From: a virus
Reading direction: 5' to 3' (one strand)
Length of the DNA stretch: 64,000 bases
Virus record (IMG/VR): IMGVR_UViG_3300044673_000327
Location: 1 to 64,000 of that record
The notes under the pieces were generated by a model. That model was not told the DNA's origin. It saw nothing but the letters and a program-made list of their open reading frames with translations, and did no database searches. This document shows positions 37,217-44,639 of this stretch, piece after piece. Position numbers and translations under genes: made by a program. The stretch's first letter is position 1, and each line of letters starts with the position of its first letter.

Positions 37217-37233
37217 CCCCGATTAGTATTCCT
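37217..37233 (-). promoter_or_regulatory. Late-type box AGGAATACTAATCGGGG
   Basis: It directly follows a terminator T-tract (TTTTTTCTTT) on the minus strand, 20 bases before the ATG of 36478-37197. Exact consensus copy. Confidence 0.5.
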
Positions 37234-42301: not shown

Positions 42302-42349
42302 CTAGTTCTGGAACGAACGAACGATCGTGCAGAAACGTTCATCGACAAG
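42302..42349 (-). pseudogene. Displaced C-terminus of the capsid gene
   Basis: Sixteen codons abut the HNH stop codon and read LVDERFCTIVRSFQN then TAG. The active capsid gene 1.1 kb upstream ends LIDERFCTIVRSFQN then TAG. The protein is the same except Val for Ile, but most codons differ by synonymous changes (for example TTC TGC ACG ATC against TTT TGT ACA ATT). This is the original 3' end, cut off by the insertion of the terminator plus HNH unit. Confidence 0.85.
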
Positions 42350-43297
42350 TTACCCGTCTTTATTAGTATTCCTGTGTTTGCCCGTGGCGATTAAACCGAC
42401 CGTCGCTCTAGACACCCCGTAAAGTTTGGCGATCGCCCCCTGTGTCATCGCTCGGGCTTCCCATATCTTGCGAATTTCTTCTACCTGTTCGTCTGTCAAC
42501 TTGCACCGAGGATTGTTCTCTCCCGCTAGTAACCCCTTTCGGACTTGTTTGTTTCGTTCGATAACTTTATCCGGGCGGGAAACTCCTTTCGCTCGAAGAA
42601 TTCTTTCTACAGTTCCGATCGATAATCCCACCACATCGGCTATTTCTCTACTAAAACAGCCATCTTGCCGCATCGAGATTATTGTTTCAGCGATCGCTTC
42701 ATTAGTTCTAACACCTGTATTGAAATGCTCTTTAACTTTCTTGTTCAGGATTCGCTCGAAATAGTCACGGCTATTATCCTGATGGGTTCCGATTTCGAGG
42801 TGGTCGGGATTAATGCAAAGTTTATTGTCGCATTTGTGACGTATTAGCTTTTCTTTAGGAACTGGTTCTTTAAAAACCTCGTAGCTTAATCTATGGGCTT
42901 GCCATATCTTGCCGTGATAACCGATGCTTCCATATCCCGCGCTGGTAACTCCACCAATCCAATTCCAACAATCGGTTTCACGATCGATTACTCGTTTCTG
43001 TTTTAGTCGAACTTGAATAGATTCTCCTCGGTGACGTGGGCGATCACCTAAAACTAAATGCTCTGGGTTAACACAATGATTATTTTTACAGGTATGGTTG
43101 ACGATCTTTCCCTCGGGAATAGATTCAAGTTCGTTATAAATGCAATACGAGAGACGATGAGCCATTACCGTTTTTCTGTTGATATGCGTCGTTCCAAACC
43201 CATCCCAATTGATAGCGGCTATCCAAAGCCAGCATCCATCGGGATCGGAACGCTTGTCGATCTTGGAATGAAACCGATCTACAATTTCCTGTTTCAT
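42350..43297 (-). CDS. HNH homing endonuclease, two HNH modules plus helix-turn-helix
   Basis: The 315-residue protein has two HNH/AP2-like modules: CWLWIAAINWDGFG, AHRLSYCIYN and NHTCKNNHCVNPEHL, then CWNWIGGVTSAGYG, AHRLSYEVFKE and RHKCDNKLCINPDHL. Two helix-turn-helix segments follow (SREIADVVGLSIGTVERIL; QGAIAKLYGVSRATVGLIA). It would cut a capsid-gene site in phages lacking it and spread by repair. It has its own promoter, AT-rich codons and a terminator upstream. It is placed between the recoded capsid end and the displaced one. Its last codons contain a late-type box (AGGAATACTAAT). Confidence 0.9.
   Translation of the reverse strand: MKQEIVDRFHSKIDKRSDPDGCWLWIAAINWDGFGTTHINRKTVMAHRLSYCIYNELESIPEGKIVNHTCKNNHCVNPEHLVLGDRPRHRGESIQVRLKQKRVIDRETDCWNWIGGVTSAGYGSIGYHGKIWQAHRLSYEVFKEPVPKEKLIRHKCDNKLCINPDHLEIGTHQDNSRDYFERILNKKVKEHFNTGVRTNEAIAETIISMRQDGCFSREIADVVGLSIGTVERILRAKGVSRPDKVIERNKQVRKGLLAGENNPRCKLTDEQVEEIRKIWEARAMTQGAIAKLYGVSRATVGLIATGKHRNTNKDG
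42362..42373 (-). promoter_or_regulatory. Late-type box inside the HNH 3' end
   Basis: AGGAATACTAAT encodes RNTN near the HNH C-terminus, 13 bases before the displaced capsid end. A chance 12-base match is unlikely, so it may have been carried by recombination. Confidence 0.35.
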
Positions 43298-43324
43298 AGA
43301 ATCATCTCATTGTCGTGTCTCTTT

Positions 43325-43354
43325 ATTATGCCATGTATCGAGCGTAATCAGCAA
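43325..43354 (-). promoter_or_regulatory. Promoter of the HNH gene
   Basis: Minus strand TTGCTG (43354-43349), 18-base spacer, CATAAT (43330-43325), about 28 bases before the ATG. It gives the inserted gene its own sigma70-type expression. Confidence 0.55.
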
Positions 43355-43384
43355 TCTATATGATTATGTAGCTTATAATAGAAA

Positions 43385-43413
43385 TAAGCCTCTTGGAATT
43401 ATCCAAAAGGCTT
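43385..43413. terminator. Terminator after the capsid gene
   Basis: AAGCCTTTTGGA and TCCAAGAGGCTT form a long stem with a short loop; on the minus strand ATTTCTATT follows. It closes the capsid transcript before the HNH unit and appears to have arrived with it. Confidence 0.65.
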
Positions 43414-43439
43414 ACTGTGTCTAAAATCTAGTTGTTGTT

Positions 43440-44639
43440 CTAGTTTTGGAAAGAGCGTACAATTGTACAAAAACGTTCGTCAATTAGCTCGAACGACCCG
43501 AAGATCTGCCAAATGCAGATAATGAACCGTTGGAAGTCATCGTTGGAGTTCATGAGGATACGCGGGCCATCTCCACCGATACCGACCCCGATACACTGCG
43601 GGCCGAAAACGATCCCGAGTTCGGCGGTACGAGCGGCGGAACCACCGGTCACACCCGCGGGTTGGTTGGAGTAGTTCACCGTGACGGTAGCTTTAGGCAT
43701 ATTGGTCGTGGTGAAGTAGCGGATACCGTTGAACACGAAACCGGAGGGCATCGTTTGAGCGCCGAGCATATCGATCATCTGACCACCGGCGAGACCCGCG
43801 AACCAAGTCGAGCTAGACTGACCGACGGGCATACCACCACCACCGATCTGCGGGATAGACATCGGTTCGGCTCCGACTCCCATACTGGAGACGGGGATAT
43901 TACCGGGGTAGCGGGTGATCTCGCGGAAGTCTTTATCGGCGCGGAGATCTTGCAGGAAACGGGGGGAGCAGAGACACCAGTAGTTACCGTCCTCGAAACG
44001 GGGTACTAACCGTTCGGACATACGGGTGTTCACCTCTTCCATGAAGTTGACGGTGATCTTGGGAACCTTCGATCCGTAGACGGTGCTAGAACCGATGTCC
44101 ACGGTCGCGCCATCGGCGAAACCACCGGGGTTGTAGACGAAGGTGGATTTCAACATCTCGTTGATGTAAACCCGATCTTCCCAACGACGGTAATCGTCGA
44201 GGAGATTAGCCGAACCGATCGAATCGTGGAAAGCCTGAGCGCCGTAATCCCAATATTTCCGTTGCGCCGTCATCAATTGTTGGATAGGGATCTGGAACGT
44301 CGCGGGGGTGTTCGGGCTATCGATCGCCGACGGTCCGGTGTACTCCCGGAGGGTCATGATCACCTTGTCTTTGTCGAACCCGCGGGCGTTACCCACACCG
44401 ATCGTTTGGGTCTGACTACGTTCGCGAGCCGTTTTGGTTAGACTCTGCTCGCGGTTGGCGGAACTGAGTTCTTTATCCGCCCAGAACGCGGGACGATCGA
44501 GTTGCACCGAATCACCCGGGCCTTTGGTGTGGTCGTACATGACGCGGGGACGGGTGATCAGTTTAGAGATATAGGTCGGGACGGGGCGGAATAATTCAGC
44601 GCCGAGAATTAACGGAACATCATTATCGATAAAGCTCAC
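43440..44639 (-). CDS. Major capsid protein
   Basis: The 399-residue protein begins at GTG (MSFIDNDVPLILGAEL), with a long N-terminal arm (residues 5-60), a helical spine region (QQLMTAQRKYWDYGAQAFHD) and a Gly-rich loop (PQIGGGGMPVGQSSSTW), in keeping with a phage shell protein downstream of portal and scaffold-like genes. The last 15 residues are encoded by a recoded sequence (see 42302-42349). The Shine-Dalgarno AGGAG sits in a hairpin. The assignment rests on order, size and character, with no unambiguous family motif. Confidence 0.8.
   Translation of the reverse strand: MSFIDNDVPLILGAELFRPVPTYISKLITRPRVMYDHTKGPGDSVQLDRPAFWADKELSSANREQSLTKTARERSQTQTIGVGNARGFDKDKVIMTLREYTGPSAIDSPNTPATFQIPIQQLMTAQRKYWDYGAQAFHDSIGSANLLDDYRRWEDRVYINEMLKSTFVYNPGGFADGATVDIGSSTVYGSKVPKITVNFMEEVNTRMSERLVPRFEDGNYWCLCSPRFLQDLRADKDFREITRYPGNIPVSSMGVGAEPMSIPQIGGGGMPVGQSSSTWFAGLAGGQMIDMLGAQTMPSGFVFNGIRYFTTTNMPKATVTVNYSNQPAGVTGGSAARTAELGIVFGPQCIGVGIGGDGPRILMNSNDDFQRFIICIWQIFGSFELIDERFCTIVRSFQN

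Follow-up and report, generated by a model that had tools for sequence, protein, structure and literature searches.

The stretch of DNA analysed here (the window, 64,000 nucleotides) comprises bases 1-64000 of an IMG/VR virus record of 85,288 bp, which is a single contig. On its minus strand the ORF list gives a reading frame of 399 aa (44639-43440) that matches the PHROGs family phrog_1357, 'major head protein', with E=4e-11. The predicted structure is a rough model, with a mean pLDDT of 58, and its top structural matches are phage capsids, including those of Ralstonia phage GP4 and of the cyanophages A4 and Pan3. This gene encodes the major head protein. A capsid homologue 41% identical by tblastn is present in Synechococcus phage S-EIV1, and at least 584 stretches of viral contigs code for relatives of the window capsid.

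The last 15 codons of the capsid gene, together with their stop, are present twice on the minus strand. The active end (43440..43487; peptide LIDERFCTIVRSFQN, then TAG) follows the codon GAG and reads GAG|CTA ATT GAC GAA CGT TTT TGT ACA ATT GTA CGC TCT TTC CAA AAC TAG. The second, displaced copy (42302..42349; LVDERFCTIVRSFQN*) starts 1.1 kb downstream of it and reads CTT GTC GAT GAA CGT TTC TGC ACG ATC GTT CGT TCG TTC CAG AAC TAG. The two agree in 36 of 48 nucleotides (75%), in 14 of 15 residues and in the TAG stop; by codons, four are the same, ten are changed silently and one exchanges Ile and Val. An earlier note on this DNA had claimed that the capsid end exists twice, with the protein nearly unchanged and most codons silently altered, and both points are borne out. 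The displaced copy is intact, has no start codon of its own and lies in the frame of the HNH gene described below, past its stop. The pair is not a chance resemblance, since the second-best match to the 15-residue tail in the six frames of the 64-kb window reaches 7/15 against 14/15 here; in the whole 85,288-bp record this capsid pair is the only strong gene-tail repeat.

Between the two tails lies a gene for an HNH endonuclease of 315 aa (42350..43297, minus strand), with two tandem HNH_3-type domains and C-terminal helix-turn-helix regions. The HNH_3 match (E=2.3e-16) falls in two stretches and scores 59.6 bits against a curated cut-off of 24.8; the helix-turn-helix matches cover residues 206-240 and 266-308, outside the nuclease domain. 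Among the HNH endonucleases of PHROGs, matches reach E values down to 4e-48, and a comparison with PDB sequences returned weak matches only, mostly to designed repeat proteins, which were set aside. No close relatives of the window HNH could be confirmed and no second copy of the element was found. The gene ends in GGG TAA and abuts the CTT of the displaced tail with zero gap (right junction ...GGGTAA|CTTGTC...), exactly as the earlier note had it. The active capsid stop is separated from the HNH gene by an AT-rich spacer of 142 nt. The same note had put a terminator and a promoter between the tails. The former is there, as a strong hairpin of 15 pairs 3' of the active capsid stop (43383..43416, minus strand; fold z = -7.3); the latter is not supported, as a consensus scan gave 3 matches against 2.8 expected from shuffled sequence.

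Taken together, the active tail, the terminator spacer and the HNH gene would form one element of 1,138 nt (42350..43487, minus strand), which we delimit from the sequence, from codon usage and by analogy to the loci L189, L191 and L141 discussed below. It sits between the capsid codons GAG and CTT, the native body of the gene extending up to GAG (Glu384; 43488..44639, minus strand), and its occupied left junction is ...TTCGAG|CTAATTGAC... The left edge is uncertain by 2 nt because both tails begin with CT, and the right edge may be a few codons further in, since a motif found throughout the phage lies inside the 3' end of the HNH gene. On the capsid strand the HNH gene is the sole sizeable ORF of this 1.1-kb unit, and the unit contains no integrase.

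The motif is the 12-mer AGGAATACTAAT, of which the minus strand of the window has 9 copies with at most one mismatch, where 0.4 would be expected (for instance at 37233, 41315, 42205, 42373, 45040, 57629 and 57842), and the plus strand none. Its copies are mostly intergenic, often 24-75 nt upstream of a start codon and sometimes then followed by CGGGGTC, and it may serve the phage as a promoter or leader signal; one copy occupies the last HNH codons (42373-42362). A different repeat lies beyond the window, at about 64,669-64,956 of the record (L098:4669-4956): a direct repeat of some 27 nt, TCAACATCTCGGGAGGATTAAATRATG, consisting of a ribosome-binding site and start, brackets an ORF of about 90 aa and resembles a duplicated start region.

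The composition of the two tails tells them apart. Third-position GC is 0.68 in the capsid body and 0.60 in the displaced tail, against 0.27 in the active tail; for the HNH gene it is 0.42. Scored by the capsid's own codon usage, no 15-codon stretch of the capsid body has a likelihood as low as that of the active tail, and the displaced tail falls within the body's normal range. By codon usage, the active tail is foreign and the displaced tail is native-like. Furthermore, 11 of the 12 nucleotide differences between the tails are synonymous, compared with about 22% of random single changes (P ~6e-7 without selection). Since the displaced copy is not open to selection where it is now placed, this excess of silent changes indicates that each tail was the functioning end of a capsid gene, in a genome of its own, while they diverged. 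They would have been brought together recently enough for the displaced copy to be intact still.

Relatives of the capsid gene give the background against which this arrangement is to be seen. Searches of viral and genome contigs by exact peptide patterns found no close capsid relatives, and the tail peptide had no exact match among viral contigs; the nearest capsids are about 47% identical over the capsid, which does not allow an empty-site comparison at DNA level for the window locus itself. Among 80 loci (L003-L082), the capsid relatives with a readable end have a single tail each and no adjoining HNH gene, and the capsid stop of L094, L095 and L097 is followed within about 65 nt by the start of another ORF, of 218-221 aa. 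One uninterrupted C-terminus is the rule among relatives. On the 1.2-Mb plasmid pA of the cyanobacterium Kovacikia minuta (L083:9192-10178) a related capsid gene is accompanied by a tandem-HNH gene, 38% identical to the window HNH, convergent and directly 3' of the capsid stop, with no tail duplication. In L096 (639-1744) a homologous capsid gene is split (MP|TG) by an insert of about 1.1 kb, which matches the group I intron family RF00028 with E=2.7e-6, below the Rfam gathering score, and has an antisense LAGLIDADG-like ORF within the capsid gene. With other mobile elements at the same gene in these two loci, the capsid gene of this phage group is a repeated target.

The same layout was sought at other genes in a survey of 130 distinct HNH ORFs with their flanks, by an end-anchored comparison for two copies of the tail of the preceding gene; among mis-paired controls the score averaged 14.4, and 99.9% of them stayed at or below 33.7. 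The window scored 77, L191 90, L189 76, L141 67 (also L307), L123 40 and L122 35, and a weaker match, L124, scored 35 with seven identical residues. The targets are unrelated: the capsid gene, a cyanophage gene of 85 aa, a gene of 230 aa and a putative ADP-ribosyltransferase, so annotated in some relatives. As in the window, the HNH gene of L191, L189 and L141 stops (TAG) immediately before the displaced tail, and in L123, L122 and L124 the HNH frame enters the displaced tail and takes its stop. L189 and L191 have the same insertion point in an orthologous gene, and their active and displaced protein tails differ by about one third, so that silent recoding is no general rule. The high score of L190 came from two consecutive HNH genes with a common C-terminus, and the scores of L326/L148 and L342 seem to reflect chance or low complexity. 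An antisense version of the layout is seen in L335 (1088-2046), where an HNH gene on the opposite strand separates the two tails of a small gene, SGKLAELEVRHKQ... and TGKLAELEVRHKQ..., which agree in 14 of 24 residues; the following ORF, in a different frame, overlaps the displaced tail.

For two of these other systems relatives free of the HNH gene are available, and they join the gene directly to sequence of the displaced type, as the earlier note had predicted for empty sites (92-98% identity in cyanophages, 85% in Pseudomonas phages). The Pseudomonas phages Flu_PA14_4, phi2, YA3, BR228a and P7869 (L180-L184) have no HNH gene directly after the L123-type gene, which ends in QLNAEGEFVEFDE or QLSAEGEFVEFDE, compared with VLNKNGEFVECD for the active end of L123. 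Over 123 nt, which take in the gene end and some 80 nt beyond it, these phages are 84-85% identical to the displaced copy of L123 and what follows it, so in L123, too, the displaced copy is of the native type by these relatives. In the cyanophage set, 80 viral loci carrying the L191 gene were taken together with L188, L189, L191 and two Synechococcus phages; HNH gene and second tail are both absent from 77 of these. Between L191 and the HNH-free L220 the gene body is 94% identical, the displaced tail is 93% identical to the only tail of L220 and the downstream DNA 96-98%, against at most 74% identity of the L191 active tail to any relative. Likewise, L189 matches the HNH-free L258 at 93% in the body and 92% in the displaced tail, and its active tail reaches at most 83% with the best match among relatives. 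Empty and occupied alleles of one gene are thus at hand in L220/L191 and L258/L189, with the same insertion point in both, and because body and displaced tail match the HNH-free relatives and the active tail does not, the active tail came with the HNH gene. For the L141 gene the search for relatives gave one weak match only and no empty site.

Several loci look like steps of gain or loss. Against L220, the displaced tail of L191 differs in about its first 40 nt and agrees fully over the remainder that was aligned base by base, a pattern suggestive of a conversion tract leading out of the element into recipient DNA. In the HNH-free L248 (2500-2761), 69 nt of the tail are identical to the active tail of L189 and are followed by displaced-like sequence; this chimeric tail is a candidate cured allele, in which the element would have been lost through recombination between the tails. 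L188 has the gene and an HNH gene 75-79% identical without a displaced tail, which means that the layout is not fixed. Its tail agrees at 28 of 41 positions with the active tails and at 21-23 of 41 with the displaced ones, and it may represent a donor-like or an eroded state.

According to our analysis, the window very probably holds a mobile HNH homing element that lies in the 3' end of an essential coding gene, uses neither intron nor intein and carries a replacement tail. The comparisons support the view that an HNH element replaced the 3' end of the capsid gene and pushed the native end downstream. The presence of a homologous tandem-HNH gene next to a homologous capsid gene in Kovacikia lends further support.

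Other origins have to be weighed against this. Phage genomes are mosaics, and the Kovacikia HNH gene stands downstream of a homologous capsid gene without tail duplication, which would suit an ordinary recombination that joined a donor capsid end and its neighbouring HNH gene with the nuclease playing no part. We hold such a passive event to be unlikely, though worth some weight: the layout recurs at several unrelated genes with the HNH gene between the tails, L189 and L191 have their insertion point in common, and the HNH stop abuts the displaced tail in both of them, in L141 and in the window. Local duplication of the capsid end, followed by insertion of the HNH gene and drift of the untranslated copy, would need no donor, and the copies are 75% identical. 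Duplication in place and drift would not, however, account for the divergence, because nearly all differences are synonymous although the untranslated copy would be unselected, because the codon outlier is the active and not the displaced copy, and because the displaced copy is the native one in L191 and L123; we find this origin very improbable. A joining of alleles of two strains by the assembly of one metagenomic contig must be considered for a window that is a single IMG/VR contig whose element has no second copy, but given junctions that are base-exact at the HNH stop and a layout that recurs in other contigs (L122, L123; L141; L189; L191) there is very little chance that an artefact produced it.

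The intron in the homologous capsid gene of L096 brings to mind a group I intron or an intein, for which the tail at 42302 would be the true 3' exon or extein. The window locus has no Rfam intron match and lacks a group I core, an intein's open frame would be broken by the TAG at 43442-43440, the active tail is closed by a stop and a terminator ahead of the HNH gene, and splicing of either kind would leave the conserved first tail unexplained, so that we attach scarcely any probability to it. It is also barely conceivable that both tails are used as alternative C-termini, for instance by read-through of the HNH stop into the displaced tail. That tail does lie in the HNH frame, and the HNH proteins of L123 and L122 end in the displaced tail, but the two tails encode nearly the same peptide, with little to be gained from a switch, and agreement of frame is expected by chance in one case out of three.

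If the element is a homing unit with a replacement tail, its foreign tail, being in frame, lets a normal capsid protein be made, and the native tail is left untranslated just past the HNH stop. We infer the cleavage, the homing or transfer and the immunity of the occupied allele, and would picture them as follows. In a co-infecting phage whose capsid gene is uninterrupted, the HNH protein would nick or cut the 3' end of that gene near GAG|CTT, the target being the joined site GAG-CTTGTCGAT, in DNA ...TTCGAG|CTTGTCGATGAACG... Repair from the element-bearing genome would copy the element, with the capsid body as one homology arm and the displaced tail and downstream DNA as the other. The occupied allele would escape cutting because its site is split and its new tail is spelled differently. 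As to origin, a one-sided repair may have captured the diverged capsid tail of a donor together with the neighbouring HNH gene; one-sided repair with microhomology joints is documented in T4 (PMC2988022). The earlier note had read the locus as a homing unit that carries a cleavage-proof replacement of the target's tail, and the structural part of this reading is supported by codon usage, silent changes and empty sites elsewhere. Most simply, the recoding would be the natural divergence of the donor phage's allele rather than a purpose-made change, and it needs no design, because the replacement tails of L189 and L191 differ in protein too, as donor alleles would. The tail may be cleavage-proof all the same.

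Replacement of a gene's end by an incoming element has precedents. At icd of E. coli, the integrating elements phage 21 and e14 supply a synonymous replacement of the 3' end of the gene. Those elements bring an integrase acting at an att site, in contrast to the 1.1-kb unit of the window. In fungal mitochondria, mobile ORFs with a replaced C-terminus are described for atp6 of Allomyces macrogynus and for atp6, atp9, cox2 and nad3 of Glomus; the foreign C-terminus lies upstream, the displaced native one lies downstream and is closer to relatives, the tail DNA is divergent with the protein conserved, and a hybrid transcript was shown (PMC3630166). The window has the same parts: an endonuclease ORF in the 3' part of the gene, a foreign in-frame tail and a displaced native tail. 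It differs in that its nuclease is of the HNH_3 type, compared with LAGLIDADG or GIY-YIG in Glomus (PMC3630166), in that it belongs to a phage and not to mitochondria, and in being described here from sequence. As the nuclease type is not common to both, the window element would work like the organellar mobile ORFs and is not a member of their family. The earlier note was right about this organelle precedent, and we too found no description of a tail-replacing HNH gene or of a phage case in open-licence PMC papers, a scope within which a subscription paper could be missed; tail replacement is not mentioned in the searched passages of recent phage-nuclease papers.

HNH genes of phages are described between genes, within introns or splitting a gene; the free-standing ones are usually intergenic or divide a gene in two, such as mobE in nrdA of Aeh1 and mobA in T4 gene 60 (PMC2988022). 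With the free-standing ones (T4 Mob, HNH_3/I-HmuI-like) the window gene shares an HNH_3 nuclease with DNA-binding regions, its stand-alone state and a place near an essential gene, but no replacement tail is described there (PMC2988022). Elements of the ShiLan type are unspliced HNH insertions in a phage methylase gene, with the HNH stop in the last bases of the insertion, TAAC (PMC11855218). The window junction has the same four bases; unlike the capsid gene here, the ShiLan host gene continues through the insertion in a different frame, and there is no replacement tail (PMC11855218). Cluster J mycobacteriophages have group I introns with homing endonucleases in capsid genes (PMC3706429), which, like the intron of L096, are mobile elements that leave a capsid gene functional; they do so by RNA splicing, and no intron was detected in the window. 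The engineered TARE toxin-antidote drive combines a nuclease with a deliberately recoded rescue of its target (PMC7046741). The window likewise pairs a nuclease with a recoded target rescue, the engineering and the deliberateness belonging to TARE only.

It would be reasonable to suggest, with somewhat less assurance than for the window itself, that tail-replacing HNH elements probably form a recurrent and so far undescribed class of phage mobile DNA, found at about 5 of 130 HNH genes and at unrelated targets. They would act as natural 'cut and rescue' drives: coding sequence, even that of essential genes, would be invaded with no need of splicing, the native tail would stay on to serve as a homology arm, and recombination between the tails could remove the element again. 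On the usual view, a homing gene gets into an essential coding gene only if it travels in an intron or intein, splits the gene, or is tolerated as an in-frame insertion. The loci described here point to another route by which homing genes in phages can enter such genes, which is to bring a spare gene end, and such a spare tail would explain how an unspliced nuclease gene can lie inside a capsid gene. L191 and L220 exemplify nearly identical sequences of which one has the element and the other lacks it. These elements may be a natural counterpart of engineered rescue drives, with chimeric structural genes as their by-product.
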